Shown piece after piece: positions 8,963 to 27,407 of a stretch of DNA of 64,000 nt (positions are counted from its first letter, which is position 1; the number at the start of each line of letters is the position of its first letter). The position numbers and the translations under genes are program-made. Below the pieces are notes generated by a model. It saw only the letters and a program-made list of their open reading frames with translations. It searched no databases and was not told the origin of the DNA. The stretch is taken from contig CP110972.1 in the NCBI GenBank assembly GCA_028869255.1, positions 4,531,001-4,595,000 on the forward strand, written 5' to 3'. Source of the stretch: Pseudomonas poae. Its GTDB lineage: Bacteria > Pseudomonadota > Gammaproteobacteria > Pseudomonadales > Pseudomonadaceae.

Positions 8963-9074
8963 CTACACTCCTTGACGATTGCCTGAGACGCCTCAGGAGC
9001 CGTCACGGGCATTCGCTGTACAAGAGAGCCGTCTAACCGGCTTCATAAAAAAAACAAATGTCGAGGAAGTATTG

Positions 9075-10001: not shown

Positions 10002-10020
10002 TACCTGACTAAGCTTATGT

Positions 10021-10045: not shown

Positions 10046-10194
10046 CGTCTGTTACTACCTGCTGGCTTTAATTTGGAACACTCGACCTGGCGGATTCCGA
10101 GCCGATCGCGTGTGCCTGACGTTCAACGTCGGGCGGGAAAGGATCTTCCCCAAGCGGGTGCTTGTACATCGATCGATCTCGAGGGGAGACCCTA

Positions 10195-10941
10195 ATGAAT
10201 TACAACTGGGACTGGGGCGTGTTCTTCAAGTCCACCGGCGTTGGCAGCGAGACTTATCTCGACTGGTATATCGCCGGCTTGGGCTGGACCATCGCCATCG
10301 CTGTCGTGGCATGGATTATCGCCTTGTTGCTGGGGTCCGTGCTGGGCGTCATGCGCACCGTGCCGAACCGCATCGTATCGGGCATCGCGACCTGCTACGT
10401 GGAACTGTTTCGTAACGTACCGCTGCTGGTGCAGCTGTTTATCTGGTACTTCCTCGTACCCGATATGCTCCCGCAAAACCTGCAGGACTGGTACAAACAG
10501 GACCTCAACCCGACCACCTCGGCTTACCTGAGCGTTGTCGTGTGCCTGGGCCTGTTCACCGCCGCCCGTGTGTGTGAACAAGTGCGTACCGGTATCCAGG
10601 CGCTGCCACGTGGCCAGGAATCCGCTGCACGCGCCATGGGTTTCAAGCTGCCGCAGATCTACTGGAACGTGCTGCTGCCCCAGGCCTATCGGATCATCAT
10701 TCCGCCGCTTACCTCGGAATTCCTCAACGTGTTCAAGAACTCCTCCGTGGCGTCCTTGATCGGCCTGATGGAATTGCTGGCGCAAACCAAGCAGACCGCC
10801 GAGTTCTCGGCCAACCTGTTTGAAGCCTTCACCCTGGCTACGCTGATCTACTTCACCCTGAACATGAGCCTGATGCTGCTCATGCGCGTGGTCGAGAAGA
10901 AAGTCGCCGTGCCCGGCCTGATCTCCGTGGGGGGTAAATAA
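10195..10941 (+). CDS. aatQ: Glutamate/aspartate ABC transporter permease
   Basis: Inner-membrane permease subunit (GltJ/AatQ). It has several transmembrane helices and the family signature ESAARAMGFKLPQIYWNVLLPQA (split here by description: EAA-like loop around residues 140-165), which contacts the ATPase. The ATG at 10195 is preferred because GAGGGGAG precedes it and homologues begin with a short MNYNWDWGVF leader. The stop overlaps the next start by one base (TAATG). It pairs with AatM as a heterodimeric channel. Confidence 0.92.
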   Translation: MNYNWDWGVFFKSTGVGSETYLDWYIAGLGWTIAIAVVAWIIALLLGSVLGVMRTVPNRIVSGIATCYVELFRNVPLLVQLFIWYFLVPDMLPQNLQDWYKQDLNPTTSAYLSVVVCLGLFTAARVCEQVRTGIQALPRGQESAARAMGFKLPQIYWNVLLPQAYRIIIPPLTSEFLNVFKNSSVASLIGLMELLAQTKQTAEFSANLFEAFTLATLIYFTLNMSLMLLMRVVEKKVAVPGLISVGGK

Positions 10942-11612
10942 TGGAATTCGATTTCAGCGGCATCATCCCCGCCATTCCGGGCCTGTGGAACGGCATGGTC
11001 ATGACCTTGCAGTTGATGGTCATGGGCGTGGTCGGCGGCATCGTGCTGGGTACCCTCCTCGCACTGATGCGCCTGTCGTCCAGCAAACTGCTGTCACGCC
11101 TGGCCGGCGCCTATGTGAACTATTTCCGTTCAATCCCGCTGCTGCTGGTGATCACCTGGTTCTACCTGGCGGTGCCGTTCGTGCTGCGCTGGATCACCGG
11201 CGAAGACACGCCGATCGGCGCGTTCACCTCCTGCGTCGTGGCCTTCATGATGTTTGAAGCCGCGTACTTCTGTGAAATCGTGCGGGCCGGCGTGCAGTCG
11301 ATCCCCAAGGGCCAGATGGCGGCGGCACAAGCGATGGGCATGACCTACGGCCAGACCATGCGCCTGATCATCCTGCCCCAGGCGTTCCGCAAGATGACCC
11401 CGTTGCTGCTGCAACAGTCGATCATCCTGTTCCAGGACACTTCGCTGGTCTACACCGTAGGCCTGGTGGATTTCCTCAACTCCGCCCGCTCCAACGGCGA
11501 TATCATCGGCCGCTCCAATGAGTTCCTGATCTTTGCCGGTGTCGTCTACTTCATCATCAGCTTTTCCGCCTCGCTGCTGGTCAAGCGTCTGCAAAAAAGG
11601 TTTGCCGTATGA
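10941..11612 (+). CDS. aatM: Glutamate/aspartate ABC transporter permease
   Basis: Second permease subunit (GltK/AatM), 223 residues, with helices and an EAA-loop ([20 protein letters not shown], about residues 130-150). It overlaps aatQ by one base and aatP by four (ATGA), indicating tight translational coupling. Confidence 0.92.
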
Positions 11613-12343
11613 TCTCTATCAAGAACATCAACAAGTGGTATGGCGACTTCCAGGTGCTGACCGATTGCAGCACCGAGGTTAAAAAAGGCGAAGTGATCGT
11701 GGTGTGCGGGCCGTCCGGCTCGGGCAAATCCACGCTGATCAAGTGCGTCAACGCGCTGGAGCCGTTCCAGAAGGGCGATGTGGTCGTCGACGGCACCTCC
11801 ATCGCCGACCCGAAGACCAACCTCCCGCAACTGCGTTCACGGGTGGGCATGGTGTTTCAGCACTTCGAGCTGTTCCCGCACCTGACCATCACCGAAAACC
11901 TGACCATCGCGCAGATCAAGGTGCTTGGCCGCAGCAAGGAAGAAGCCACCAAAAAGGGCCTGCAACTGCTTGAGCGCGTAGGCCTGTCGGCACACGCCCA
12001 CAAGCACCCGGGCCAGCTCTCCGGCGGCCAGCAACAACGTGTGGCAATTGCCCGCGCCCTGGCCATGGACCCGATCGTGATGCTGTTCGACGAACCGACC
12101 TCCGCCCTCGACCCGGAGATGGTCAACGAAGTGCTCGACGTGATGGTGCAACTGGCCCACGAAGGCATGACCATGATGTGCGTGACCCACGAAATGGGCT
12201 TCGCCCGCAAAGTGGCCGACCGCGTGATCTTCATGGACGCCGGCAAGATCATCGAAGACTGCCCGAAAGAGGAGTTCTTCGGCGATATCAGCGCCCGCTC
12301 CGAGCGTGCGCAGCACTTCCTTGAGAAGATCCTGCAGCACTAA
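11609..12343 (+). CDS. aatP: Glutamate/aspartate ABC transporter ATP-binding protein
   Basis: ATPase of the acidic amino acid importer (GltL/AatP). Walker [10 protein letters not shown] is near residue 34, followed by the Q-loop [10 protein letters not shown], signature LSGGQQQRV, Walker [15 protein letters not shown] and switch-His CVTHEMGFA. The 244-residue length is typical of polar amino acid ATPases. It is the last gene of the transporter operon, and a class I REPIN follows. Confidence 0.95.
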
Positions 12344-12380
12344 GCCCTACAGCGCTTCCACTGTGAAAACCGGATCCATT

Positions 12381-12467
12381 GTGGGAGCGGGCTTGCTCGC
12401 GAAAGCTATCTGTCAGTTGATACATCAGTAACTGGCAGACCGCTTTCGCGAGCAAGCCCGCTCCCAC
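12381..12467. repeat. Class I REPIN
   Basis: GTGGGAGCGGGCTTGCTCGC and its reverse complement face each other across about 45 bases, between aatP and aauS. Confidence 0.9.
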
Positions 12468-12515
12468 ATTGGACCGCGCAGGCTGGCAAGCTCTGGTTGA
12501 CCCAAGGCATCTGTG

Positions 12516-14417
12516 ATGAAATGCGACCCCAACCAATTTCGCGCCGCACCGCCATCACTTGCCGTGAAACCTCGTCTGATTCGCCAACTGTTCCTGCCGC
12601 CGTTGATCATCGCCTTGATGATCGGCCTGGGTTATATCGGCTTCTGGGTCAGTGAGTACTATGGCATCCGCACCCTCAGCGACACTGGCGAACGCCAGCT
12701 GGAACTGCACGCCCGCACCGTCGAAAGCGAACTGAGCAAATACACCTACCTGCCCAGCCTGCTGGAGTTGGAGTCCAGCGTTTCCGCGCTGCTGGCCGAC
12801 CCGAACCAGGAAACCCGGCAAACGGTCAACGATTACCTCGAGGGCCTGAACCGACGCAGTCGCAGTCGGGCCATTTACGTGATGGACACCACCGGCCGTG
12901 TGCTGGCCACCAGTAACTGGCGCGATGCCGACAGTTATCAGGGTGAAGACCTGTCCTTCCGTGCCTATTTCCAAAATGCCGTGCGCGGCCAGCCCGGGCG
13001 TTTCTACGGCATCGGCAGCACCAACGGCGAACCTGGCTACTACTTGGCCCACGGCCTGGAAGAGCACGGCAAGATCATCGGCGTGGCCGTGGTCAAGGTG
13101 CGCCTCGAAGCGCTGGAAGAACGCTGGCAGCGCGCCCGTCTCGAAGCGTTTGTCAGCGATGAAAACGGCATCATCATCCTCTCCAGCGACCCGGCCCGCC
13201 GCCTCAAGGCCGTACGCCCTTTGAGCGATGACACCAAGGAACGCCTGGCCCACAGCCTGCAATATTACTGGGCGACCCTGAACGAGCTGGAGCCGCTGGC
13301 CCGCGAACGCTTGAACGAAGGCACCGAAAAACTGACCTTCCCGGCCAACAGTGAAGTGGTTAACGACGAGCATGAAGTGAGCTACCTGGCGCAAACCCGC
13401 CCACTCAACGACACCCCGTGGAATTTCACCCTGCTTACGCCACTCAATGACTTGCGCCGCGCTGCGATCAACCAGGGCATTCTGGTGGCCGTCGCCTTTG
13501 GTCTGGTGGCCTTCCTGCTGATCGCCTGGAACGAACGCCGCAAGGTCATCGCCACCCGCCTCGCCGCCCGCGAAGCCTTGCAGGAAGCCAACAGCCAGCT
13601 GGAGCGTCGGATTGCCGAACGCACCGCCGACCTGCGGGCCAGCAACGAACGGCTCAAAGGCCAGATCCGCGAACGGCGCCAGGCCGAAGAAACCCTGCGC
13701 CGCGCCCAGGATGAACTGGTGCAGGCCGGCAAACTGGCGGCCATCGGCCAGATGTCCACCAGCATCGCCCATGAATTGAACCAGCCGTTGGCCGCGTTGC
13801 GCACTCTGTCGGGTAACACCGTGCGCTTCCTCGAACGGGGCGCCCTGGACACCGCCAGCGCCAATCTCAAAACCATCAACGAGCTGATAGACCGCATGGG
13901 CCGTATCACCGCCAGCCTGCGTTCGTTTGCCCGGCGCGGCGATAACCAGGGCGAAGCCAACCTTGCCAAGGCCGTGGACGCGGCGTTCCAGGTGCTGGGC
14001 GCGCGCCTGGACGGCCTGCCGCTGACCCTGCACCGCGAGTTCAACAATGCGCAGTTGCAGATCGACCAAACGCGCCTGGAGCAAATCCTGGTCAACCTGA
14101 TCGGCAACGCCCTCGATGCGATGCAGGCGCAACCGGCCCCCGAACTGTGGCTGGAAGGCCACAGCACCGACGGCAAGTACCGCCTGCACGTGCGCGACAA
14201 CGGCCACGGTATCGACCCCGAGGCGCGCAAACATCTATTCGAACCGTTCTTCACCACCAAACCCGGCGAACAAGGGCTGGGCCTGGGCCTGACCCTGTCC
14301 GCCAGCCTCGCGGCGGCCACCGGCGGCAACCTCGCCGTGGAGCACCCGGCCAGTGGTGGTACGGCCTTTGTCTTGTGCCTGCCGCTGGCGGGCACTCAGA
14401 AAGCTGAGTCGACATGA
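12516..14417 (+). CDS. aauS: Sensor histidine kinase of acidic amino acid uptake (DctB-like)
   Basis: Membrane kinase that phosphorylates AauR in response to external acidic amino acids. One transmembrane helix is near residues 25-47 and another near 325-343, enclosing a periplasmic double-Cache-like domain as in DctB. A coiled coil follows, then the H-box STSIAHELNQPLAALR with the phospho-His near residue 420, and the ATPase with N-box LVNLIGNALDAM, DNGHGID and GLGLGL. The annotated frame can also start at the GTG at 12513, directly before this ATG. The stop overlaps aauR by four bases. Naming follows the adjacent aatJQMP operon. Confidence 0.88.
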   Translation: MKCDPNQFRAAPPSLAVKPRLIRQLFLPPLIIALMIGLGYIGFWVSEYYGIRTLSDTGERQLELHARTVESELSKYTYLPSLLELESSVSALLADPNQETRQTVNDYLEGLNRRSRSRAIYVMDTTGRVLATSNWRDADSYQGEDLSFRAYFQNAVRGQPGRFYGIGSTNGEPGYYLAHGLEEHGKIIGVAVVKVRLEALEERWQRARLEAFVSDENGIIILSSDPARRLKAVRPLSDDTKERLAHSLQYYWATLNELEPLARERLNEGTEKLTFPANSEVVNDEHEVSYLAQTRPLNDTPWNFTLLTPLNDLRRAAINQGILVAVAFGLVAFLLIAWNERRKVIATRLAAREALQEANSQLERRIAERTADLRASNERLKGQIRERRQAEETLRRAQDELVQAGKLAAIGQMSTSIAHELNQPLAALRTLSGNTVRFLERGALDTASANLKTINELIDRMGRITASLRSFARRGDNQGEANLAKAVDAAFQVLGARLDGLPLTLHREFNNAQLQIDQTRLEQILVNLIGNALDAMQAQPAPELWLEGHSTDGKYRLHVRDNGHGIDPEARKHLFEPFFTTKPGEQGLGLGLTLSASLAAATGGNLAVEHPASGGTAFVLCLPLAGTQKAEST

Positions 14418-15763
14418 ATACAGACACCACAGCCGCAAAAGACGACCTTACCGTGCTGATCGTCGAAGATGACCCGCATGTGCTGCTCGGCTGCCAGCAG
14501 GCGCTGGCGCTGGAAGACATTCCCAGCGTGGGCGTAGCCAGTGCCGAAGAAGCCCTCAAGCGTATCGGCGAGAATTTTGCCGGTATCGTCATCAGTGATA
14601 TTCGCCTGCCGGGCATCGACGGACTGGAGCTGCTGACCCGCCTCAAGGCGCTGGATAAAAGCCTGCCGGTGGTGCTGATTACCGGGCATGGCGATATCTC
14701 GATGGCCGTCGGCGCCATGCGCAACGGCGCCTATGATTTCATGGAAAAACCCTTCTCCCCCGAGCGCCTGGTCGACGTCGCCCGCCGCGCTCTGGAGCAG
14801 CGCGGGCTGGCGCGGGAAGTCTGGTCGCTGCGCCGCCAGTTGGCCGAGCGCGACTCTTTGGAAGGCCGCATCATCGGCCGCTCGCCGGCCATGCAGAACT
14901 TGCGCGAGCTGATCGCCAATGTGGCCGACACCTCGGCCAACGTGCTGATCGAAGGCGAGACCGGCACCGGCAAGGAACTGGTTGCGCGCTGCCTGCATGA
15001 TTTCAGTCGGCGCCATTCGCATCAATTCGTCGCCCTGAACTGCGGCGGCCTGCCGGAAAATCTCTTCGAAAGCGAGATTTTCGGCCATGAAGCCAACGCG
15101 TTTACCGGCGCCGGCAAGCGCCGCATCGGCAAGATCGAACACGCCCACGAAGGCACGCTGTTCCTCGATGAGGTGGAAAGCATGCCGATTAACCTGCAGA
15201 TCAAACTGCTGCGGGTCTTGCAGGAGCGCACCCTCGAACGCCTGGGTTCGAACCAGAGCGTGGCGGTGGATTGCCGAGTGATCGCCGCCACCAAGTCCGA
15301 CCTCGACGAACTGAGCCGCGCCAATCAGTTCCGCAGCGACCTGTACTACCGCCTCAACGTGGTGACCCTGGAACTGCCGCCCCTGCGCGAACGCCGCGAA
15401 GATATCCTGCAACTGTTCGAACACTTCCTGCAGCAGTCGTCGCTACGCTTCGACCGCGCCGTGCCGGAACTGGACAACCAGACCGTGTCGAGCCTGATGA
15501 GCCACGACTGGCCAGGCAATGTGCGTGAACTGCGCAACGTGGCCGAGCGTTTTGCCTTGGGCTTGCCGGCCTTCAAGAAAAGCGGCACCGGCAACGCCAA
15601 CCATGGCCTGGCCTTCACCGAGGCGGTGGAAGCCTTCGAACGCAACCTGCTGGTGGATGCCCTGCAACGTAGCGGCGGCAACCTGACCCAGGCCAGCCAG
15701 GAACTGGGGATGGCCAAGACCACGCTGTTCGACAAGGTCAAGAAATATGGGTTGAACCACTGA
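14414..15763 (+). CDS. aauR: Sigma-54-dependent response regulator of acidic amino acid uptake
   Basis: NtrC-family activator for the aatJ promoter. The REC domain has Asp-Asp (IVEDDPH) and phospho-Asp in VISDIRLPG. The AAA+ domain has Walker A GETGTGKE and Walker B GTLFLDEVES. A Fis-type helix-turn-helix is at the C-terminus (NLTQASQELGMAKTTLFDKV). The sigma-54-contact loop reads NAFTGA where GAFTGA is canonical, so the first Gly is Asn. It overlaps aauS upstream and glpM downstream. Confidence 0.9.
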   Translation: MNTDTTAAKDDLTVLIVEDDPHVLLGCQQALALEDIPSVGVASAEEALKRIGENFAGIVISDIRLPGIDGLELLTRLKALDKSLPVVLITGHGDISMAVGAMRNGAYDFMEKPFSPERLVDVARRALEQRGLAREVWSLRRQLAERDSLEGRIIGRSPAMQNLRELIANVADTSANVLIEGETGTGKELVARCLHDFSRRHSHQFVALNCGGLPENLFESEIFGHEANAFTGAGKRRIGKIEHAHEGTLFLDEVESMPINLQIKLLRVLQERTLERLGSNQSVAVDCRVIAATKSDLDELSRANQFRSDLYYRLNVVTLELPPLRERREDILQLFEHFLQQSSLRFDRAVPELDNQTVSSLMSHDWPGNVRELRNVAERFALGLPAFKKSGTGNANHGLAFTEAVEAFERNLLVDALQRSGGNLTQASQELGMAKTTLFDKVKKYGLNH

Positions 15764-16101: not shown

Positions 16102-16119
16102 CCCAACTCGGTCAAACAT

Positions 16120-16206
16120 GTGGGAGCGGGCTTGCTCGCGAATGCGCTGTATCAGGCACTTAAATATTGGCTGACCGACCGCTTTCGCGAGCACGCCCGC
16201 TCCCAC
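16120..16206. repeat. Class I REPIN
   Basis: GTGGGAGCGGGCTTGCTCGC faces its reverse complement (one variant base, GCACGCCCGC) between the convergent ends of glpM and the response-regulator gene. Confidence 0.88.
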
Positions 16207-16232
16207 ATTTGGATCGGTGACAGACAGATAAA

Positions 16233-17630
16233 TCAGCGGACGATCTTGTCGACCTGGATGCCGAGCTTCTTCAGGCGATACCAAAAGCTCCTCTCGGAAA
16301 TCCCGATCTTCGCCGCCGCTGCCGCCTGCACGCCGTTGCTCTCCTGCAACGCCGCCAGGATGTAGGCTTTCTCCACCTCCGCCAGCGCCGCATCAAGGTC
16401 CTGGGGAATGCCCGGCCCGTCGCTGAGAATAGCCGTTACCCCGCTCTCGCTCGGCCTGGAAGCGAACAGATACCCCGGCAGGTCGATATCTTCGATCACA
16501 GGCGTTGCGGCCACGATGGTCGCACGCTCCACGCAGTTTTGCAGCTCGCGGATATTGCCCGGCCAGTGGTAAGCCGCCATGGCCTGCAACGCCTCCGGGC
16601 TGAAGCCGGTGATGCGTTTGCCGGCGGTGGCGCTGAGGGTCTGGGCAAAGTGGCGAGCCAGAGGCGCGATGTCTTCCACGCGTTCACGCAGGGCCGGCAA
16701 TGGGATCGGGAAGACGTTGAGACGGTAATACAGGTCTTCGCGAAACTCCTTGTTGGCCACCGCGTCCAGCAGGTTCTTGTTGGTGGCGGCGATGACCCGC
16801 ACATCCACCTTGCGCTCCCGAGGGTCGCCTACTGGCTCGATCACCCGCTCCTGCAGCGCCCGTAGAATCTTGGCTTGCAGTGCCAGCGGCATATCGCCTA
16901 CTTCGTCGAGAAACAGCGTGCCCTTGTCGGCCTGCATAAAGCGCCCGACCCGGTCGGCCACAGCGCCGGTAAACGCGCCTTTGCGGTGGCCGAACATTTC
17001 GCTTTCCAGCAGGCCTTCAGGGATCGCCGCGCAGTTGACCGCCACAAACGGCTTGTCGGCACGGCTGCCGTGCTTGTGGATGGCGCGGGCGACCATTTCC
17101 TTGCCGGTGCCGCTTTCGCCGGTCAGCAGGATCGTGGCGCTGCTGTCGCGCACCGAATCCACCGCTTGCAGGACTTTGCGAAAGGCCGGGCTGTCGCCGA
17201 CCAGGCTGTCGAACTGCGCGTGTTCATCCAGCTCGGCGCGCATGCGGGCGTTGTCGCGCATGATGTCGCGAAACTGCAGCGCCTTGGCCACGGTGATGTC
17301 CAGTTCGTCGATATCGAACGGCTTGGCAATGTAGTCATAGGCGCCGTTGCGCATCGACTGCACGGCGTTTTTCACCGTGCTGTAGGCGGTCATCACGATC
17401 ACCGGCACCTGCGGGTAACGCACTTTGATCTCAGCCAGCAGCGCCGGCCCGTCCATGCCGGGCATGCGCCAGTCGCTGATCACCAGGTCGATGTCTTCCT
17501 GCTCCAGCACCTTGAGCGCGTGCAGGCCGTTGCCGGCAATAAATACCTGCACGCCGTTCTGGCCCAGGGCCGACGCCAGCAGGTCGCAGAGCTTGGGTTC
17601 GTCGTCGACTACCAGAATGTTATGCGTCAT
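16233..17630 (-). CDS. Sigma-54-dependent response regulator (last gene of orphan operon)
   Basis: NtrC-type activator of 465 residues. The REC domain has VVDDEPK and phospho-Asp in LVISDWRMPGMDG. The AAA+ core has GESGTGKE, a canonical GAFTGA loop (HRKGAFTGAVAD) and Walker B GTLFLDEVGD. The C-terminal Fis helix-turn-helix contains AAAAKIGISERSFWYRLK. The ATG at 17630 is chosen because it begins exactly at the REC domain; an upstream in-frame start at 17789 reads through the kinase gene in another frame. It overlaps the sensor kinase by 11 bases. The likely target is the sigma-54 promoter at 23668-23683 that heads its own operon, which would make the system autoregulated. Confidence 0.9.
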   Translation of the reverse strand: MTHNILVVDDEPKLCDLLASALGQNGVQVFIAGNGLHALKVLEQEDIDLVISDWRMPGMDGPALLAEIKVRYPQVPVIVMTAYSTVKNAVQSMRNGAYDYIAKPFDIDELDITVAKALQFRDIMRDNARMRAELDEHAQFDSLVGDSPAFRKVLQAVDSVRDSSATILLTGESGTGKEMVARAIHKHGSRADKPFVAVNCAAIPEGLLESEMFGHRKGAFTGAVADRVGRFMQADKGTLFLDEVGDMPLALQAKILRALQERVIEPVGDPRERKVDVRVIAATNKNLLDAVANKEFREDLYYRLNVFPIPLPALRERVEDIAPLARHFAQTLSATAGKRITGFSPEALQAMAAYHWPGNIRELQNCVERATIVAATPVIEDIDLPGYLFASRPSESGVTAILSDGPGIPQDLDAALAEVEKAYILAALQESNGVQAAAAAKIGISERSFWYRLKKLGIQVDKIVR

Positions 17631-19387
17631 GACTGTCCTCGTCGTCTTCGCCAATCGCCGGAATGTACAGGCTGAACGTGGCGCCGGCATCTTTCTCGCT
17701 GGCACATTCGATGCTGCCGTCGTGACTTTCCATGATCGAATAGACTTTGGCCAGACCCAGGCCAGTACCGGAAGCCTTGGTGGTGACAAATGGCGTGAAG
17801 ATGCGCTCGATCATCTCCGCCGGAATGCCCTGGCCGGTATCGGCGATGCTGATCAGGGTGTTGTCGCCCAGGCTGCGGATGCCCAGGGTCAGGCGGCCGC
17901 CTTCGGGCATGGCGTCGATGGCGTTGAGAATCAGGTTCAGGCAAGCCTGCTTGAGTTGCTTGGCGTCCGCGTAAATCGTCGCGCCCGGCGCCTGGTCGTC
18001 TATCTGGGCGTCGATGTTATGGGTCGCGAGTTCCGGCGCGCAGAAGCCGAGGATTTCTTCCACCAGCGGGCGCGCCGGTTGCAGCACGCGCAAGGGCGGG
18101 TTGGGCTTGGCGAAGTCGAGGAACTCGGTGATCAGGTCGTTGATGCGGCTGACTTCACTGATCACGTATTCCAGGTGGCGCTTGTCGGCTTCGGGCAGGT
18201 CGGCGCGGCGGTGCAGCAATTGGGTGGCGGTCTTGATGATGCCCAGCGGGTTGCGGATCTCGTGGGCCAGGCCCATGGCGACTTCGCCCAGGGCATGCAG
18301 GCGGTCACGCCGACGCAACTGGGCTTCGAGGTGATGCAGCTCGCCCAGGCGCTCGGTCATGTGGTTGAAGGTGCTGCTCAATTGCGCCAGTTCATCGCCG
18401 CCGGTGACCCGCACGCGGTGCTCGTAATTGCCGGAAATCACCGCGCCCACGCCTTGGGACAAGTCGCGCAGCGGCTGGTCAGGCGCCGCGACACCAACAC
18501 TCCGGCCGCCAGCGACAGCGCCGAACTGAGCAGGAAAATCAGCACAAACAGATTGCTCTGGTTCACCAGCCCCACCAGGCTGGTATGGCGCAGCAGGCCG
18601 CTGAAGATCACGCCTTGCAAGTCGCCGGCATCACTGAAAATCGGCCAGTACAAACCGCTGTAATTATTGGTGAACTGCTCGCTGGGCTGCTTGGTGCTGC
18701 GCATCGCGGCTTCGACATTTTTGGAATACGCGACGGGTGATCTTCAAAGCGCTGGGTCGAGAATATCTCCGAGAAGCCGTCGGGGTTGGCCAGGTAAAGA
18801 CGCAGGTCGAGGGAATGCACATCGGCCACGCTGGTCAGGAAGCTGCTGTCCAGGTAGGTCGCCACCAGCAACAGGTAGTCGACGCCGTCCTGGGTAGTTT
18901 CGAAGGTCGAGACCACGATGCCCGTGCTCACGCCCGCCACCTGAACGGTCTGCAACACCGCGTTGCTGGTCAGGCTGATCTGCTTGACGATGTCATCGGA
19001 CGCGGTGCTGAACACCACTTTTTTATCGCTGGTGCGGATCAGTGCCACCACGTCGATGTCGGTGGCATCGGCGATGTCGGCGGTCAGGCGGTCGTGCTTG
19101 GCGGCTTGCCGGCTCGAGGGCGGGCTGGTGTAGCGCAGGAACAGTTTGGCCATGCGTGCATTGTCGTGAAGGATGTCGCCGATCTCGTCCTTGACGATCT
19201 TGGTCGACTCTTGCAGCCAGATACGCACGTTGCTGTCGAAAATCTGCGACAGCGTGGTGGCGGCCAGTTCCGCCGCGATCATGGTGGGGATCACGCTGAC
19301 CAACCAGAACGCCAGCACCAGCTTGCGCTGGACGCTCCAGCGCGAAATGGCAAAGGGACGGGCTTTCTGGCGGGTCTTGGTGATCAT
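17620..19387 (-). pseudogene. Sensor histidine kinase, broken by two single-base deletions as sequenced
   Basis: Read through both breaks, this is an approximately 589-residue membrane kinase. It has an N-terminal helix (LVLAFWLVSVIPTMIAAELA), a periplasmic sensor domain, a second helix (NLFVLIFLLSSALSLAAGVL), HAMP, the H-box MGLAHEIRNPLGI, and an ATPase with NLILNAIDAMPEG, DTGQGIP and GTGLGLAKV. The first break is in the T5 run at 18718-18722, where one more base joins ...SRIPKN to VEAAMRS. The second is at 18477-18478, where CTGACC-AGCCG needs one more C to read LTQPLRDLSQG. Both lie in mononucleotide runs, so sequence error or slippage is as likely as true decay. The C-terminal half from 18462 could be made alone. 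It overlaps the upstream gene (ATGA). Confidence 0.85.
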
Positions 19388-20511
19388 CAGGTTTCGCTTA
19401 TCGCAGCAGCCATGGCAGGGTCGGAACGATCCGGTCGAATAAACAGTTTTACAAGCTTGAGCAGGCCGTTGACCAGCCGGTTGCGGTGGCGGAAAAACAC
19501 ACTGTTGCCCTGGAACTCGCAGCCCAGGCGCAGCTTACTGGCATACCCGGCCTGCCCGCACTCATACACCGCAATATTGTGCTGGATACAGTAGTCGACA
19601 TTGGTCAGCCAACTGCGGAAGTACAGGTTGTAGTCGCGGGTGAATGCCACGTCATGCCCGAAAAACTTGTCGACCAGCCGGTGTTCGTCCACCAGGACCG
19701 GGTTGAACGCCACCAACTGCTCGTCCACCCAGTAAAGAACACAAACGGCGCGCTGTTCAAGACGTTCGAGCACACCGGTGAAGTAACCGGCGGGCAGGCG
19801 CTCGAACTGCAACTCGGCCCGCGTCAGGGTGGCTTCGTACAGGCGCATGACGTCGGGCAGTACGTCGTCGATATTGCGCCGCCATTCTACCCGAGGCCCC
19901 GGTGCGCGCAGTTTGCGGCGCAGGTCCTTGCGCGTGGACTTGCCCAGCGAGCCGAGGTAGGCATCCACCGAACCGTAAGGCAGCGGCAACACGCCCGTGG
20001 GCAAACTCGGCATGCTTTGAAAGCCTGCCGCCCGGCAGCTGTCGAGCCAGTGCGGGTCTTGAGAAGGAGCGTCCTTGACCGCTAGCAGGCCGATGCCGAA
20101 GTCATCCGCGTCCTGGCGTGCGGCCGCCAGCAAGTGCTTGAGCAACAGCGCACGGCGCGACGCAGGTACGTGGCTGGCCACCCCGGCGTCGCAGCGTTCG
20201 GCCACCGGCGAGCCGATGGCATACAGGCCCAGCTGCAAAACACCCGGCCACAGCCGCTCCAGGCGCTCGGTCAAGCGCTTGCCGGCACCCGACACGGTGG
20301 TGTCGAGCCGATAATGGGTGATGAACGCGGCGGCCACGGCCACCAGCGTTCCATCCTGGTAAACCGCCAGGTAACGCCACTTGAAATCAGCGATGGCGGC
20401 GTTTTCCACGGCGATGTAATAGTCCCAGTCCTCCAGGGCACCGGGAAAGCAGTCGTTCCAGGCACTGCGCTGGATGCCCCGGATAGTCGGGAAGGCTTGG
20501 GTGGTGATCAC
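19387..20511 (-). CDS. GNAT-fold / peptidogalycan-biosynthesis-like acyltransferase
   Basis: A 374-residue soluble protein resembling the double-GNAT proteins annotated as peptidogalycan biosynthesis or recognition (FemAB/BioF2-like). Recognisable parts are SLGKSTRKDLRRKLR, common at the start of the second GNAT lobe, and the C-terminal substrate segment DYNLYFRSWLTNVDYCIQ with ECGQAGYASKLRLG. The acceptor is unknown. The stop overlaps the kinase start. It is separated from the upstream hydrolase by a class III REPIN, the only sizeable gap in the operon. Transfer of an acyl or aminoacyl group to an amine or lipid is an inference from fold and neighbours. Confidence 0.7.
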   Translation of the reverse strand: MITTQAFPTIRGIQRSAWNDCFPGALEDWDYYIAVENAAIADFKWRYLAVYQDGTLVAVAAAFITHYRLDTTVSGAGKRLTERLERLWPGVLQLGLYAIGSPVAERCDAGVASHVPASRRALLLKHLLAAARQDADDFGIGLLAVKDAPSQDPHWLDSCRAAGFQSMPSLPTGVLPLPYGSVDAYLGSLGKSTRKDLRRKLRAPGPRVEWRRNIDDVLPDVMRLYEATLTRAELQFERLPAGYFTGVLERLEQRAVCVLYWVDEQLVAFNPVLVDEHRLVDKFFGHDVAFTRDYNLYFRSWLTNVDYCIQHNIAVYECGQAGYASKLRLGCEFQGNSVFFRHRNRLVNGLLKLVKLFIRPDRSDPAMAAAISET

Positions 20512-20560
20512 ATATATCCCTTACGCGTAAGCAAGTTCATGGCGGTCGCAAGCGGCCCCT

Positions 20561-20683
20561 GTGGCGAGCGGGCTTGCCCGCGTTGGGCTGCGAAGCAGCC
20601 CCCCTCAAAGTCTCCCGGTTAAACCGCAGTCGGCAGGTTTTGGGGCGGCTGCGCCACCCAACGCGGGCAAGCCCGCTCGCCAC
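20561..20683. repeat. Class III REPIN overlapping the hydrolase 3' end
   Basis: GTGGCGAGCGGGCTTGCC at 20561 and its reverse complement ending at 20683 flank a GCGCAGCC/GGCTGCG-bearing centre. The right 65 bases encode the last ~21 residues and stop codon of the hydrolase on the minus strand. Confidence 0.88.
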
Positions 20684-21533
20684 TAAGGGGTTCGGTGCGA
20701 GCGCTAGAGGTGTGCTGCTCGACGAACTCGGCACTCAACTCGATCACCCGACGGTATTGCAGGTCGACGGTGATCATGTGGTAACAGTTGTCCAACAGGA
20801 TCTTGGTCACCGGCCCGCCGAGGTGGCGTTCCACGTAATCGGCATTCCAGCGGCTGGTGATGTCGTCTTCGATGGAGTGCAACACCAGCGCCGGCACCTT
20901 GACCTGCGGCATGCATTTCTTGACCACGGCGTTCATCCGGTGCAATTCGCGCACGGTGATACCCTCCATGGTCAGCAAGCCGGCCTCGCTGCTCTCCCCT
21001 TCCTTCATCTGCCGCTCGACGATGGCTCGCAGGCGTTCATTCTTGATGCCGTAGGGCGGTTTTTCTTCGAAGCTGCAAAGGTGCACACCGAATGGAATCG
21101 TCATCAGCAACGGCGTCAAGAACGCCAGCTTGTTGATGCTCCAGCCGTCGTACTTCAAGGTGGTGGAATACATCAGCAGCCCGGCGACTTGCCCCGGATG
21201 TTCGGCGGCCACGTACATCGACATCACCGCGCCCATGGACAAGCCACCGACAAACACCTGCGCGTGCCGTTGCTTGACCTGTACGAAGGTCTTGCGCACG
21301 CCTTCGTACCAGTCGCGCCAGCCGGTGGCCTGCAAGTCGCTGTTGTCGCCACAGTGCCCGGCCAGGGTAGGCACGTACACCGTGCAGTTGCCCGCTTTGG
21401 CCAGGCCCTTGGCGACCTGGCGCAATTCCGTCGGGGTGCCGGTCAGGCCGTGGATCAACAGGATCCCGACCGGACCTTCACCGAGAACGAAGCCGGCGGT
21501 ACCTTCACCGAGGTCGATCTCGTGGCTATTCAC
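20619..21533 (-). CDS. Alpha/beta hydrolase, monoacylglycerol lipase/carboxylesterase-like, with REPIN-encoded tail
   Basis: Cytoplasmic serine hydrolase. The oxyanion segment LLIHGLTGTP, nucleophile elbow GGLSMGA, acid in LVLHSIEDDI and catalytic His in NCYHMITVD are all present, and the size of the core matches short-chain carboxylesterases. After EFVEQHTSSARTEPL the frame enters a class III REPIN and ends with SGERACPRWVAQPPQNLPTAV, so the C-terminus is repeat-derived. The start overlaps the aminotransferase stop by four bases. In this operon it may release or modify an acyl product; the substrate is unknown. Confidence 0.82.
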   Translation of the reverse strand: MNSHEIDLGEGTAGFVLGEGPVGILLIHGLTGTPTELRQVAKGLAKAGNCTVYVPTLAGHCGDNSDLQATGWRDWYEGVRKTFVQVKQRHAQVFVGGLSMGAVMSMYVAAEHPGQVAGLLMYSTTLKYDGWSINKLAFLTPLLMTIPFGVHLCSFEEKPPYGIKNERLRAIVERQMKEGESSEAGLLTMEGITVRELHRMNAVVKKCMPQVKVPALVLHSIEDDITSRWNADYVERHLGGPVTKILLDNCYHMITVDLQYRRVIELSAEFVEQHTSSARTEPLSGERACPRWVAQPPQNLPTAV

Positions 21534-22924
21534 CGTTTGGTCGCCCGCACCAGCAGTTGCTCAAGCAGCTTCAGGCCCAGGTCGATTTCCGGGTAGCTGA
21601 TTTCCAGGGACGGTGCCAGGGTGATCACGTTTTTGTAGTAACCGCCCACGTCGAGGATCAGGCCGAGTTTCTGACCGTCCACCACCATGTCGCCTTTCAT
21701 GCCCTCTTCGACCATGTAATCCAGGGTCGCCTTGTCCGGCGTGAAGCCATCCGGGCCGCAGATTTCACAGCGCAGGGCCAGGCCCAGGCCGTCGACGTCG
21801 CCGATGATCGGGAAACGTTTCTGCAGGTCCTGCAAACCTTCAAGGAAGTATTTGCCCTTGGCCATGACCATCGCGCCATAGTCGACTTCGTTGGTCATCT
21901 TGAACATTTCCAGGCCCACCGCCGTGCCCAACGGGTTGGAGGCGAAGGTGGAGTGAGTCGAACCTGGCGGGAACACCTTCGGGTTGATCAACTCTTCACG
22001 GGCCCAGATGCCGCCCAGTGGGTTGAGGCCGTTGGTCAGCGCCTTGCCGAACACGATCACGTCCGGTTGCACATCGAAGTGCTCGATCGACCAGAGTTTG
22101 CCGGTGCGGTAGAAGCCCATCTGGATTTCGTCGGACACCATCAGGATGCCGTGCTGGTCCAGCACCTGCTTGAGTTCGCGGTAGAAGTTCATCGGCGGGA
22201 TCACGTAGCCGCCGGTGCCCTGGATCGGCTCCACGTAGAACGCGGCGTATTCGCTCTGGCCGACTTTCGGGTCCCACACGCCGTTGTATTCGGTCTCGAA
22301 CAAACGCGCGAATTGCTGCACGCAGTGGCTGCCGTACTCCTCCTTGGTCATGCCTTTGGGGCCGCGGAAGTGATACGGGAACGGGATAAATTGCGCACGC
22401 TCGCCGAAGTGGCCGTAGCGACGACGGTAGCGGTAGCTGGAAGTGATCGACGAGGCGCCGAGGGTACGGCCGTGGTAGCCGCCTTCGAAGGCAAACATCA
22501 GGCTCTTGCCGTTGGTGGCGTTACGCACCACTTTCAGGGAGTCTTCGATGGACTGCGAACCGCCGACGTTGAAGTGCACGCGACCGTCGAGGCCGAACTT
22601 GTTCTTGGCGTCGACCGCGATCATTTCCGACAGCTCGATCTTGCCTTTGTGCAGGTATTGGCTGGCGATTTGCGGCAGGGTGTCGATCTGTTGTTTCAGC
22701 GCGTTGTTCAGGCGCGGGTTGGCGTAGCCGAAGTTGACCGCCGAGTACCACATTTGCAGGTCGAGGTAGGCCTGGTCTTCGGTGTCCCACACATAGGAGC
22801 CTTCGCAGCGGCTGAAAATGCGCGGCGGCTCGATGTAATGAACGGTGTCGCCGTAGGAGCAATACTTGGCTTCTTTATCCAGAAGGACCTGGTCTTCGGC
22901 GGTAGCGATACGGATATCAGACAT
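21530..22924 (-). CDS. Class III PLP-dependent aminotransferase
   Basis: A 464-residue fold-type I enzyme of the ornithine/4-aminobutyrate aminotransferase group. It has FNVGGSQSIEDSLK for cofactor phosphate binding, FEGGYHGRTLGAS, the Asp of the ring-nitrogen motif SDEIQMGF, and the Schiff-base Lys in VFGKALTNGLNPLGG. The closest named reaction cannot be told from sequence alone. It overlaps the HAD phosphatase by 8 bases upstream and the hydrolase by 4 downstream, so the three are one transcriptional unit. Confidence 0.85.
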   Translation of the reverse strand: MSDIRIATAEDQVLLDKEAKYCSYGDTVHYIEPPRIFSRCEGSYVWDTEDQAYLDLQMWYSAVNFGYANPRLNNALKQQIDTLPQIASQYLHKGKIELSEMIAVDAKNKFGLDGRVHFNVGGSQSIEDSLKVVRNATNGKSLMFAFEGGYHGRTLGASSITSSYRYRRRYGHFGERAQFIPFPYHFRGPKGMTKEEYGSHCVQQFARLFETEYNGVWDPKVGQSEYAAFYVEPIQGTGGYVIPPMNFYRELKQVLDQHGILMVSDEIQMGFYRTGKLWSIEHFDVQPDVIVFGKALTNGLNPLGGIWAREELINPKVFPPGSTHSTFASNPLGTAVGLEMFKMTNEVDYGAMVMAKGKYFLEGLQDLQKRFPIIGDVDGLGLALRCEICGPDGFTPDKATLDYMVEEGMKGDMVVDGQKLGLILDVGGYYKNVITLAPSLEISYPEIDLGLKLLEQLLVRATKR

Positions 22925-23618
22925 GGTGGAAGAGTTCCTGATTGTCGGCAGCAGTAAAGGAGGTGGCGTTGGCAGCGATGCCCTGAGGCAGTTGGGCCAG
23001 CAATGCAGGCACTTCGGCGAAGGTGTCGAAGCGCGCGTGAGGGATCTGGTTGGCGACGCAGTAGTCGGCGAGGCTGCCCTTGGCGAACACGAAATCGGCG
23101 GTCGAAGCCACGCACATGTCGGACTTGCCGTCGCCGATCACCAGCACGCGTTTGTTGCGCGGAGTGGATTTGCACTTGCAGTTGCCGGAGGCGGCGCGGC
23201 AGGCATCGCTGGCGTAGGGGAAGTCGATGCGCCAGCTGTTCTGGTCGACCTGACGCAGGCGGTTGGCAAGGATCGGCAGCAAGGTCACGTAGTTGCGCGA
23301 CAGAATCCGTGCGATGCCTTGCTCGATGCCGTCGCTGACCACTTCGATGGACGCGCCCAGGCCGATCACGTGATCGACGAAATCGGGGAAGTCCGGGTCG
23401 ATCTCGACGCTGTCGAAATACGCCAGCAGTTCGGAGGGGGTGGCCTTGATCAGCGCCAGTTGGCGGCTCAGGCATTCGCGTGAACCGATATGCCCGTCCA
23501 GCCATTCCTGTTCGATGGTTTCCCACTCGGGGCCGGCGAAGCGTTGGAGGACGTTGTCGATGACATCGGTGGGGGTAATGGTCCCGTCGAAGTCACACAC
23601 GATATGCCAGTGGATCAT
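22917..23618 (-). CDS. HAD-IB phosphatase, MtnX/phosphoserine phosphatase-like
   Basis: First gene of the operon. The HAD motif I nucleophile loop CDFDGTITPTD is at residues 8-18, motif II is EVVSDGIEQ, and motifs III/IV are around IGDGKSDMCVASTADFVFAKG. An inserted CKCKS pair of cysteines near residue 150 could bind a metal. The 233-residue length fits MtnX-like enzymes, but no methionine-salvage genes are near, so the substrate is probably another phosphomonoester. A sigma-54 promoter lies 50 bases upstream. Confidence 0.82.
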   Translation of the reverse strand: MIHWHIVCDFDGTITPTDVIDNVLQRFAGPEWETIEQEWLDGHIGSRECLSRQLALIKATPSELLAYFDSVEIDPDFPDFVDHVIGLGASIEVVSDGIEQGIARILSRNYVTLLPILANRLRQVDQNSWRIDFPYASDACRAASGNCKCKSTPRNKRVLVIGDGKSDMCVASTADFVFAKGSLADYCVANQIPHARFDTFAEVPALLAQLPQGIAANATSFTAADNQELFHHV

Positions 23619-23667
23619 CTGTGTTTACCTAAAAGGAGCGCGCTGTATGCGCTTGCACAAGGGGTAG

Positions 23668-23683
23668 AGCAGGGACTGTGCCA
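23668..23683 (-). promoter_or_regulatory. Sigma-54 promoter of the six-gene operon
   Basis: On the minus strand TGGCACAGTCCCTGCT aligns with TGGCACG-N4-TTGCW, keeping -24 GG and -12 GC with correct spacing. The start of transcription would fall near 23656, leaving an approximately 38-base leader before the phosphatase ATG. Confidence 0.75.
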
Positions 23684-23746: not shown

Positions 23747-23773
23747 GCTACAATTTTTGTAGCTTGCTACAAA
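23747..23773. promoter_or_regulatory. Three-half-site palindrome, candidate enhancer of the orphan response regulator
   Basis: GCTACAA (23747-23753), TTGTAGC (23757-23763) and GCTACAA (23766-23772) alternate. They form two overlapping inverted repeats, including the perfect TTTGTAGCTTGCTACAAA (23756-23773). The centre lies about 100 bases upstream of the predicted sigma-54 start, the usual distance for NtrC-type enhancers, and between the operon and the divergent mipA-like gene. Confidence 0.55.
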
Positions 23774-23845: not shown

Positions 23846-24616
23846 ATGCTCAAGCTCAGTTCTGCTGTATTCGCCGGTTTGCTGGGGCTGTGGGGGGTTG
23901 CCGGCAGCGCCCTGGCGGACCCGATCACTGGCGAAGTCGGCGCGGGCGTCAGCTACCAACCCCACGACCCCACCGGCAGCCGCTACGAAACGCGCCCCGT
24001 GCCCTACGTGGACCTGGACTGGGGCAATGTCAGCCTGAGCACCGATGACGGCCTGACCTGGAGCGCCCTGAATACCAACGGTTTTACCGCCGGGCCCTAT
24101 ATCAATTACCTGCAGGGGCGCACGTCCAACGGCTCGCTTCAGGGGCTGCGCAATGTGTCGGACATGGCCGAGATCGGCGGTTTCGTTCAGTACGCCCCGG
24201 CCGACTTCTGGCGCGTGTATGCGCGGCTGGGCCAGGCTGTGGGCGGTGGGCATTCGCAGAGCGGCACGCTGGGCAAGGTCGGCGGTGAACTTGGATACCC
24301 GCTGGGCGGTGGGATTATCGGCAGCAGCGGCCTCGCAGCGAACTTCGCCGATGCCCGCCAAACCCAGACTTATTTCGGTGTGGACGCCAATGAATCCGAG
24401 GCTTCCGGCATTCGCCCGTATAACGCCAGCGGGGGCTTTCAGAACATGACGCTGACACAGAGTTTCGAGTTTCCCCTGGCTCCAAAATGGTCACTGCTGA
24501 CCAGCGCCAGCTGGGTGCACCTGGTGGGCTCGGCGGCCAACAGCAGCATCGTCAAGGAGACCGGCGACGTGAACCAGGGCCAGGTGCAGACGGCGATCAG
24601 CTATACGTTTGACTGA
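23846..24616 (+). CDS. MipA/OmpV family outer-membrane protein
   Basis: A 256-residue outer-membrane barrel. A signal peptide of about 24 residues ends GSALADP, the mature protein is rich in alternating strands and glycine, and the last residues ITYTFD-like (SYTFD) form the aromatic barrel end. AAGGAAACC precedes the ATG. MipA/OmpV proteins act as scaffolds or small porins. It is divergent from the sigma-54 operon across a 227-base region holding the promoter and palindrome, so shared control is plausible. Confidence 0.8.
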   Translation: MLKLSSAVFAGLLGLWGVAGSALADPITGEVGAGVSYQPHDPTGSRYETRPVPYVDLDWGNVSLSTDDGLTWSALNTNGFTAGPYINYLQGRTSNGSLQGLRNVSDMAEIGGFVQYAPADFWRVYARLGQAVGGGHSQSGTLGKVGGELGYPLGGGIIGSSGLAANFADARQTQTYFGVDANESEASGIRPYNASGGFQNMTLTQSFEFPLAPKWSLLTSASWVHLVGSAANSSIVKETGDVNQGQVQTAISYTFD

Positions 24617-24654: not shown

Positions 24655-25499
24655 GAATATCCGTTGTTTGGGTGGGGGCGGGAATTGGTTTCGCTTTTAC
24701 AGCGAGTCACTTTGGAAAAGAGCCCCAAAGTAACCAAAGGGCTCTTGCCCCACCACTCGGCACCTCGCCTCCGGCTCGGTGTGCCCGCACGCAGACTTGA
24801 ATCCGTGGGCCGCCGCGATGGGCCATCCATGGCCCAGCGCGGCTAACCCGGCGTCCTGCCGGGTTACCCACGGATTCAAGCCTGCGTGCGGCCAGCGTGG
24901 TTAACGGGGCGCCTAGATCAAGATCAAGATCAAAAGCAGAGCACGGCGGCCTAGTAGCCGACCTGAGTGGTGTAGATCAAGAGCGGTTCGGCGTGCGCAG
25001 TGGTCTGCTTCTCTGTGGGAGCTGGCTTGTCGGGTCGCCGCATCGCTGCGATGCAGGCACCTCGGTACATCAGGCACACCGAGTTGATGCTTTCGCAGGC
25101 AAGCCAGCTCCCACATTTGAACCGAGTACAGCTTCAATGCTCAGGTCGGCTGTCAGGCCGCCTCGCTTTGTTTTTGATCTGGCCCTTACATCCTTACCGC
25201 TGACGAAGTCAGCGATCTTTTGATCTGCGCTTTTGATCCCAGGCGCCCCGTCAATCACGCTGGCCGAACGCAGGCTTGAATCCGTGGGCAACCCGGCAGG
25301 ACGCCGGGTTAGCCGCGCTGGGCCATGGATGGCCCATCGCGGCGGCCCACGGATTCAAGCCGGAGTGAGGGCACACCGAGCCGGAGGCGAGGTGCCGAGT
25401 GATGGGGCGAAGCGTTTTTGGTTACTTTTGGCGCTTTTCCAAAAGTGACCCGCTGTAAGAGCGGAACCCATTTCAGCCATCACCAAAAAAACGGATATG
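24655..25499. repeat. Mega-palindrome module B
   Basis: Same orientation and layout as module A: outer AATATCCGTT/ACGGATAT arms, inner GAGTCACTTTGG and AAAAGTGACCCGCTG segments, two CTTGAATCCGTGGGC hairpins, and a central class II REPIN at 25015-25114. Most of the interior reads the same as module A with scattered substitutions and short indels. It fills the whole gap between the mipA-like gene and the transporter genes. No gene is supported in it. Confidence 0.85.
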
Positions 25500-25541: not shown

Positions 25542-25946
25542 TCAGTTTTCCTCCCCCTCCGCCAACAGCGCAATCCCACCAATAATCACCGCGACCCCCA
25601 CCCAGTGCAGCGGGCTGATATGCTCCCCAAGCCCCAGCCACGACCCCAGCAACACCACCACAAACACCAGCGAACTCAAGGGGAAGGCCAGAGACAAACT
25701 ACTGCGCCGCAGAATCAGCATCCACACGAAAAACGCGCCGATATAGCTGGCAATCGCCGCCAGGATCCCAGGGTTACGCGCCACTTCACCCAGCCACTGC
25801 CAGTTGAAATCCATCTGCCCCAGTTGATCCCCGGCCACCTTGGTAAACAACTGCCCGGCGCTCTCGGTGCAAATCAGCAAGGCCCACAGCACCACGGTGC
25901 CCAGACGCCCGTGCAGCCACCCCGTATTCAAAGTTTGCGAACTCAT
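25542..25946 (-). CDS. Half-size EamA/SMR-type membrane transporter
   Basis: A 134-residue protein with four hydrophobic helices, starting MSSQTLNTGWLHG. The later helices (FPLSSLVFVVVLLGSWLGLGEHISPLHWVGVAVIIGG) match one EamA repeat, as in ArnE/ArnF and other half-size DMT proteins that work as pairs. The start at 25946 overlaps the stop of the upstream homologue (ATGA). The longer in-frame ORF to 26129 reads antisense-like residues and is rejected. It probably forms a heterodimer with the next protein. Confidence 0.78.
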   Translation of the reverse strand: MSSQTLNTGWLHGRLGTVVLWALLICTESAGQLFTKVAGDQLGQMDFNWQWLGEVARNPGILAAIASYIGAFFVWMLILRRSSLSLAFPLSSLVFVVVLLGSWLGLGEHISPLHWVGVAVIIGGIALLAEGEEN

Positions 25947-26323
25947 GCCTGACTCCCTGCAATCGCCACCAACATCACCCCCAAGGTAATCACCAGAGTG
26001 CCCAGCCAGCGTCGGCGGCTGACCGTCTCGCCCAGCACCACCTTGCCCGCCAGCACCACCCCGCAATAAGCCAGTGCCGCCGCCGGAAACAACAGGCTCA
26101 ACGGTGCACGGGACAAGGCTTCGAGCCATACGAAAAACTCAATCACGTACGCGCCGATCCCGGCCCATAGCAACGGCGCATTGAACACCTGGCCCCAGAA
26201 CGCACTCAGGCGAAAGCCGCCCTCCAGCTCCGGCAGGCGGTCCAGGCCGATCTTGAAACACAGCTGGCCGATCACATCGAGCACGATGGAAAACGCCACC
26301 AGCAACACCACAGTCAGGGTCAC
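25943..26323 (-). CDS. Half-size EamA/SMR-type membrane transporter
   Basis: A 126-residue four-helix paralogue of the preceding transporter. It has VLLVAFSIVLDVIGQLCFKIGL at the N-terminus (conserved SMR-like helix with Lys/Gln) and ALAYCGVVLAGKVVLGETVSRRRWLGTLVITLG at the C-terminus. It overlaps both neighbours by four bases, making a three-gene unit with the arginase-fold gene. The substrate is unknown. Confidence 0.78.
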   Translation of the reverse strand: MTLTVVLLVAFSIVLDVIGQLCFKIGLDRLPELEGGFRLSAFWGQVFNAPLLWAGIGAYVIEFFVWLEALSRAPLSLLFPAAALAYCGVVLAGKVVLGETVSRRRWLGTLVITLGVMLVAIAGSQA

Positions 26324-27240
26324 GGGAACAGCTCCTCAAACAGGTCGATCAGGGCTTCATTGGTGGCCGCGTTGCGCTGCAAGTCCTGCGCGCTCCAACG
26401 TTCGGGCGGTGGCTGGTCGGACTTGGCCTCCCAGCGTTTGAATGCGTTGCTGAACGCCGGCTGGGCGAATTCGCCGCACACATCGATGCCGATAATCCGC
26501 TTGCGCGCCGCCAAGGCCCGTAGCGCCTGCAGCAAGTGGGTCAGGCGCATGCCGCCCTGGTCCCAGTTGGTGGCCGCGTCTTCGATGGCGAGCACGTCTT
26601 TGTCGAGGGTGATCCAGATCGCTTCAGTGGGCAGGCTGCCGATCATCTGCTCAAGAAACGCGGCCCAGTCCAGCTCGGCCAGGTTGCGCCAGTGCAGGTG
26701 GTTTTCCTGCTGCTGGTGGCCGGCACCATCGCCCACCCTGCCCCAGACTTTCGACGGCGCGTGCTGCCAGGGAAACAACTGCAAGTGCCCGCGCTTGAGG
26801 GCGCCGAGGTTGCCGCCGCGCAGTTGCGGGTTATGCAGGTCATCGCTGCACGGGCCGAGGGTGACGATGCGCTTGATCGCCGGCATTTTCAGCGCCCGGT
26901 TGACCCACGAACCACAGTGGCGCTTGGGCGCGAAGCGCACCCAGTCGGGGTGGTTGTCGAAGTGAATCAGGCTGATCGGCTCTTTCAGGTCGGCGAGAAA
27001 CGCCGGTGTCAGGTGATGATAATCACCGGAGCCGACAAACAGGATTTCCGGGCGCGCATCCACCGGCCGGGGCCGTTTGGCCAGGCGCTCGGCAAAGCGT
27101 TTCCAGGTTTTTTCGGTGGACCACAGGCGCAGCTTCGGGCCCAGGTCCAGCAGGTCGATGCGCGTTGCACGGCCGCTGGCCAAACGCCGGGCAATCGGTG
27201 CCTGGCCGGTGAGGCTGTGGTCGAGGTCAAGAATGTTCAA
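26320..27240 (-). CDS. Arginase-fold (ureohydrolase-like / UPF0489-like) protein
   Basis: A 306-residue protein with ureohydrolase-type metal motifs: FDNHPD near residue 96, like the family DxHxD, and LDKDVL near residue 215, like DxD. The region between differs from true arginases, and WNRHHQ-like spacing is not preserved, so the substrate may not be a guanidine. It heads a unit with two half-size transporters, suggesting hydrolysis and export or import of a common small molecule (inference). Confidence 0.7.
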   Translation of the reverse strand: MNILDLDHSLTGQAPIARRLASGRATRIDLLDLGPKLRLWSTEKTWKRFAERLAKRPRPVDARPEILFVGSGDYHHLTPAFLADLKEPISLIHFDNHPDWVRFAPKRHCGSWVNRALKMPAIKRIVTLGPCSDDLHNPQLRGGNLGALKRGHLQLFPWQHAPSKVWGRVGDGAGHQQQENHLHWRNLAELDWAAFLEQMIGSLPTEAIWITLDKDVLAIEDAATNWDQGGMRLTHLLQALRALAARKRIIGIDVCGEFAQPAFSNAFKRWEAKSDQPPPERWSAQDLQRNAATNEALIDLFEELFP

Positions 27241-27325
27241 GGCAGTACGCCCCCTAATGGCTGGCTTTAGGGGGGCAATGCAAGGGACGGGCCAGCGTTT
27301 GTCCTGAGGGCAGTGCTAAGTAAAT

Positions 27326-27395
27326 GTGGGAGCTGGCTTGCCTGCGATGGCGGACTGTCAGTTACCACCGTCATCGCAGGCAAGCCAGCTCCCAC
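27326..27395. repeat. Class II REPIN
   Basis: GTGGGAGCTGGCTTGCCTGC and its reverse complement are separated by about 30 bases, just downstream of the DsbA-family gene. It is the only free-standing class II copy in the window; the others are inside the mega-palindromes. Confidence 0.9.
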
Positions 27396-27407
27396 ACTAG
27401 AGCAGTG

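Follow-up and report, generated by a model that had tools for sequence, protein, structure and literature searches.

What does Pseudomonas poae make under the control of a two-component switch that it encodes next to the genes to be switched? The question is raised by a gene cluster within a stretch of 64,000 nucleotides of contig CP110972.1 (positions 4,531,001 to 4,595,000; hereafter the window), in which an earlier note had described a six-gene Sigma-54 operon. These six genes were confirmed on the minus strand between 23618 and 16233, but the full set consists of two operons and a mipA gene and extends to ~27.3 kb. At somewhat less than even chances, we favor the reading that this is a two-operon regulon with Sigma-54-type promoters, which makes and exports a modified, amine-carrying envelope lipid. 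The reading starts from what can be taken directly from the sequence, namely the gene content, the conserved promoters, a recurrent partnership of protein families and the intact catalytic motifs. The gene set is apparently undescribed, as a literature search of titles and the starts of abstracts recovered no description of it. The genes and sites concerned are the following:

22917-23618, minus strand: HAD, a HAD-IB (MtnX-like) phosphatase, first gene of operon 1 (TIGR01489, 82.9 bits; cut-off 81.55)
21530-22924, minus strand: AT, a class III pyridoxal phosphate (PLP) aminotransferase and the most conserved gene (family scan)
20619-21533, minus strand: ABH, an alpha/beta hydrolase, monoacylglycerol-lipase-like (family scan)
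19387-20511, minus strand: FemAB, a FemAB-like tandem-GNAT protein, optional gene (FemAB_like/Acetyltransf_6 family scan)
17620-19387, minus strand: sensor histidine kinase region, split over three frames here (HAMP-HisKA-HATPase domains in the downstream piece)
16233-17630, minus strand: NtrC-type Sigma-54 response regulator (receiver, Sigma-54 AAA+ and Fis-type helix-turn-helix)
23668-23683, minus strand: -24/-12 element of operon 1, TGGCACAGTCCCTGCT, kept in 27/27 Pseudomonas loci
23747-23773, minus strand: candidate activator site, palindrome TTTGTAGCAAGCTACAAA plus half-site
23846-24616, plus strand: mipA, divergent from operon 1 (PF06629, 129.1 bits)
26320-27240, minus strand: ARG, an arginase-fold enzyme, first gene of operon 2 (PF00491, 37 bits)
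25943-26323, minus strand: SMR1, a half-size EamA transporter, ArnF/ArnE-like (below curated cut-offs)
25542-25946, minus strand: SMR2, a half-size EamA transporter, ArnE/ArnF-like (below curated cut-offs)
27279-27294, minus strand: -24/-12-like element of operon 2, TGGCCCGTCCCTTGCA, in 15/15 loci with ARG

Successive genes of operon 1 were said to be joined by short overlaps, which holds for four junctions (8, 4, 1 and 11 bases) but not for that between ABH and FemAB, where a gap of 107 bases contains part of an inverted repeat resembling repetitive extragenic palindromic (REP) elements. Operon 2, ~2 kb further upstream and read from the same strand, comprises ARG and the overlapping genes SMR1 and SMR2, with the divergent mipA between both operons.

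The promoter of operon 1 was located at 23683-23668 on the minus strand, 49 bases before the HAD start, in agreement with the earlier claim of a -24/-12 element. It was compared between the window and 26 hand-chosen relatives, of which 8 were picked first for a close FemAB and 18 were spread over the list of AT-positive genomes. The element was present in all 27 Pseudomonas loci, which are relatives and not independent cases, while among 5000 300-bp pieces drawn at random from the window 104 had a site that scored as high, versus 27 of the 27 orthologous upstream regions. Given this conservation a chance promoter was rejected, and the presence of a conserved Sigma-54-type promoter adjoining its own two-component genes is supported. 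A -24/-12-like element of different sequence, TGGCCCGTCCCTTGCA or a close variant of it, precedes ARG in each of the 15 Pseudomonas loci that have ARG in reach, and it precedes SMR1 in four loci without ARG. The HAD element is itself preceded, at a distance of around 90 bp, by the palindrome TTTGTAGCAAGCTACAAA (23773-23756), which is followed by a third half-site, TTGTAGC (23753-23747). An activator-like palindrome was found in 27/27 loci, 26 of which fit one pattern and the remaining one a close variant, and the complete genome of 6.8 Mb contains the inner palindrome a single time. Up to 300 bp away from the ARG element no such palindrome turned up, so that a likely regulator site can be given for operon 1 only. 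The HAD leader, between the -12 box and HAD, further holds a GCGC-rich inverted element (~23630-23655), found in 27/27 loci by a loose pattern.

The regulator proved to be of the NtrC-type, as had been proposed, since receiver, Sigma-54 AAA+ and Fis-type helix-turn-helix domains were all found in a Pfam-type scan. The sensor kinase is present as a region, but in this genome it is broken by two frameshifts and its reading is spread over three open reading frames (19387-18608, 18704-18438 and 18462-17620, minus strand). The kinase is a single frame in all 26 related loci, which were fetched whole, and among these 27 loci an intact partner of the regulator is lacking in the window only. The break may be a mutation or a sequencing error, which cannot be told apart. 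Judged by its reading frames the kinase looks dead here, and the response may therefore be lost or altered in this genome.

Within Pseudomonas, AT orthologs (at least 90% identity) were recovered from 83 of 298 genomes, the window's own counted, and one of the 83 was split in two pieces; in locus L060 the AT gene is split by a frame break. The gene order, a point that the earlier note had singled out for checking, turned out to be conserved well outside the strain. The six-gene order is kept in the 8 relatives picked first, and the series HAD-AT-ABH-kinase-regulator is constant across all 26, with FemAB missing from 8. In the same set mipA is found at the same place in 26/26, ARG within the fetched flank in 14/26 and the transporter pair within that flank in 18/26, being inverted in one (L050). 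On a broader scale, FemAB is present in 65 and ARG in 51 of 80 AT-positive Pseudomonas genomes (counts that leave out G000, G072 and G244). The idea that FemAB is an essential or core part was rejected, because it is absent from 15 of the 80. All 51 ARG-positive genomes hold FemAB and all 15 FemAB-negative genomes are without ARG (Fisher 1.2e-8, not corrected for kinship). Considering that joint absence needs only 2 changes on the tree of the 27 loci and that 14 FemAB-positive genomes are without ARG, the independent evidence of coupling within Pseudomonas is thin. By their distribution, FemAB and ARG nevertheless look like one optional decoration step.

Outside the genus, matches to AT at the strict cut-off were found in 2 of 274 genomes of the class besides the window's own (74% and 64% identity), and 390 genomes of the order yielded two further matches outside Pseudomonas. 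A protein search with the 64% relative recovered 5919 proteins at E <= 1e-100 among 8000 scored, and the taxon names among the matches listed run from Rhodocyclales to Thermoanaerobaculia, whereas the protein names among them are generic. A scan of named genomes contributed further loci, of which the best 80 of 572 confirmed ones were used (Extensimonas, Rhodocyclales, Legionella-type, Acidobacteria, Omnitrophota, Bosea, Caulobacter and others). Together with two earlier ones these make 82 loci with an AT at least 59% identical to that of the window, and the shares below are shares of loci and not of all bacteria. By these numbers the AT family is both large and highly conserved. HAD accompanies AT in 78 of these, ABH in 50, a transporter in 38, FemAB in 30 and ARG in 27, and all five stand beside AT in 25. 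ARG occurs with FemAB in 25 loci, FemAB alone in 5 and ARG alone in 2. Further neighbors are a ketosynthase (28 loci, 9 of them with ketosynthase beside ABH) and a DegT-type aminotransferase (13). A second version of the locus, found mostly in Acidobacteria, carries an adenylate-forming ligase (28 loci), often with a ketosynthase and a glycosyltransferase resembling monogalactosyldiacylglycerol (MGDG) synthase; ligase version and ABH occurred together in none of the 82. In the acidobacterial loci L087, L094, L103 and others the row reads ketosynthase, MGDG-synthase-like glycosyltransferase, ligase, HAD and AT, in part preceded by a carrier protein, and this gene set has the look of a separate pathway for a lipid or glycolipid. 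The Legionella-type locus L077 encodes ABH as the end of a protein with an AMP-ligase and a carrier domain, and relatives of that ligase are present in L078 and L079. This arrangement is the strongest hint of acyl chemistry, although it is our own reading that the ligase acts on fatty acyl groups. The recurrent partners of AT suggest a single pathway, envelope or secondary and so far unrecognised, that is shared by Proteobacteria, Acidobacteria, Omnitrophota and a chlamydial genome.

The switch itself was recovered from nine alphaproteobacterial loci (L107, L118, L122-L124, L131, L134, L135 and L140), where the regulator is 52-57% identical to that of the window. In exactly these nine of 76 loci examined, a -24/-12-like site scoring at least 10 is found before HAD, at -45 to -55, and none was found in the other 67, including three with regulators of 41-48%. 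The upstream region of L107 also has CTACAA and TTGTAG, and the regulator gene of L122 and L124 is succeeded by one for a MipA-like protein. As judged from these relatives, the two-component/Sigma-54 switch predates Pseudomonas. The sensor domain of the Pseudomonas kinase has no Pfam match; matches below cut-off, and weak, were to sCache in L107 and to CHASE4 in L140. In Pseudomonas and some Alphaproteobacteria the pathway has a dedicated Sigma-54-type two-component switch, which makes signal and product directly testable via one promoter and one palindrome.

What the enzymes may do can be specified in part. HAD has kept its catalytic motifs and passes the MtnX-like and HAD-IB subfamily models. 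MtnX proper, the 2,3-diketo-5-methylthiopentyl-1-phosphate (DK-MTP-1-P) phosphatase of methionine salvage, was rejected as its identity (92.6 bits versus an equivalog cut-off of 303.2). AT matches Aminotran_3 of Pfam (246 bits), has the PLP lysine K294 in 83/83 rows of the alignment and reaches no equivalog cut-off among the 25 models listed. In class III enzymes that use glutamate/2-oxoglutarate (GABA and ornithine type) an arginine holds the carboxylate. AT has T435 at this position in 83/83 rows, whereas 4 of the 5 solved relatives listed have Arg, these four being the ones that reach the position. The replacement argues against an ordinary glutamate-linked transaminase. The 'GNAT-fold protein' of the earlier note indeed has a tandem-GNAT fold of the FemX/MprF kind, but it models best on aminoacyl-tRNA-dependent transferases and the gene is optional. 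Fold comparison placed it best on streptothricin peptide synthases, FemX, FemA and MprF, with 10-19% identity in the alignments, and sequence searches of solved structures gave no match. For ARG, too, neither the solved structures (at E <= 0.1) nor NCBIfam gave a sequence match; fold comparison revealed a ureohydrolase fold, with the metal ligands in 19/19 rows. The best NCBIfam matches of SMR1 and SMR2 are the ArnF and ArnE models, at scores under the equivalog cut-offs (52.4 and 35.3 bits versus 99 for ArnF, and 34.3 and 38.8 versus 92 for ArnE). The ABH of the window is 304 amino acids long, its last codons being inside the REP-like repeat, and the matches of relatives often stop near residue 277.

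The earlier proposal that the genes make or use an amino-containing metabolite or lipid is supported by this inventory, a lipid being the likelier product. With respect to the substrates, the product, the direction of transport, the signal and the dependence on RpoN, we infer the following course. The kinase would sense an envelope or outside signal and phosphorylate the regulator, which would bind the TTGTAGC repeats and open the HAD promoter with RpoN. AT and HAD would turn a phosphorylated keto precursor into an amino head group or amino lipid, with ABH handling the acyl chain. Where present, FemAB may add an amino acid from aminoacyl-tRNA and the arginase-fold enzyme may rework this addition. 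The ArnE/ArnF-like pair would flip the product outward and MipA would cooperate with it at the outer membrane. The envelope would thereby become more cationic, by a logic like that of Ara4N (4-amino-4-deoxy-L-arabinose) or lysyl-phosphatidylglycerol. In a more specific variant, FemAB would use the tRNA of arginine, or of a similar amino acid, to load that amino acid onto the amino lipid made by AT and HAD, ARG would cut the guanidino group while it is attached and the transporter pair would flip the resulting ornithine-like head group outward. To such a tRNA-dependent, ureohydrolase-edited modification we would give little chance.

Among the alternatives, the one that survives best is that the product of this regulon is a small soluble amine (serinol- or polyamine-like, or a signal), which is exported by the half transporters, with acyl chemistry being secondary. 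An aminotransferase and a phosphatase lead from dihydroxyacetone phosphate to serinol, and AT and HAD could in this manner convert a keto-phosphate to an amino alcohol; the half-size EamA proteins fit as well, as MdtIJ exports spermidine. The recurrent neighbors with a role in acyl chemistry, i.e. ABH, ketosynthase, ligase, carrier protein and, in L068, a fatty acid hydroxylase, argue against this, and we consider it somewhat unlikely. Rather improbable is a catabolic regulon, in which the kinase responds to an amine or amino compound outside the cell that the enzymes degrade, uptake being aided by the half transporters or MipA. The use of nitrogen or carbon is often under NtrC-type control, AT, the hydrolase and the arginase-fold enzyme would suit breakdown, and the locus adjoins a transporter of the glutamate/aspartate type that has an NtrC-type system of its own. 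Nevertheless, the fold of FemAB and the association of HAD-AT with lipid-synthesis genes in Acidobacteria point to synthesis, and T435 in place of arginine speaks against an ordinary glutamate-linked transaminase. That the two operons and mipA are neighbors by genomic history and do not form one pathway is very improbable, since the same families recur together in differing orders in several phyla, even if gene order is fluid between phyla and FemAB and ARG come and go.

The regulon would be a system for envelope aminolipid modification, or else for amine export, that resembles Arn and MprF in logic. Like the Arn (Ara4N) system it combines a PLP aminotransferase with a pair of half-size EamA flippase proteins, with envelope charge as the likely outcome. 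It differs from Arn in that the SMR pair misses the ArnE/ArnF cut-offs, the aminotransferase of the window is of class III and not DegT-type, and there is no ArnC/ArnT-like glycosyltransferase among the genes described here. With respect to MprF and other lysyl- and alanyl-phosphatidylglycerol synthases, and FemX/FemA, the FemAB protein is only 10-19% identical, looks soluble and is without the flippase domain of MprF. AT shares fold family and PLP lysine with other class III aminotransferases (GABA, ornithine, alanine/serine racemase; RtxA aminotransferase 4ppm), but has Thr and not Arg at the carboxylate position. Within the arginase/agmatinase/guanidinase superfamily, ARG stands out by always being found beside AT/FemAB-type genes among the loci described here. 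The two-component pair is built like AtoSC and AauSR, with a HAMP-HisKA-HATPase kinase, a receiver-AAA-Fis regulator and a -24/-12 promoter, but scores below the AtoC and AtoS cut-offs and has other target genes. If the system does make an aminoacyl-lipid, it would join Arn and MprF as a further way of controlling surface charge.

Some minor features surround the two operons. REP-like inverted repeats were found at 20561-20683 (the ABH-FemAB gap), 16118-16208 (downstream of the regulator) and 27325-27396 (upstream of ARG). A larger inverted repeat lies where mipA and SMR2 converge, in the interval between the two genes, with arms of 258 nt each (24657-24914 and 25241-25498) that are 87% complementary and 326 nt apart. 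Beside the locus, an amino-acid ATP-binding cassette (ABC) transporter operon (8979-12343), which by eye we take to be GltIJKL/Aat-like, is followed by a second NtrC-type two-component pair (12513-15763), presumably AauSR-like. A -24/-12-like site lies by this transporter operon at 8947, the whole region covering 8947-15763, and similar regulator pairs adjoin the AT locus in many relatives.
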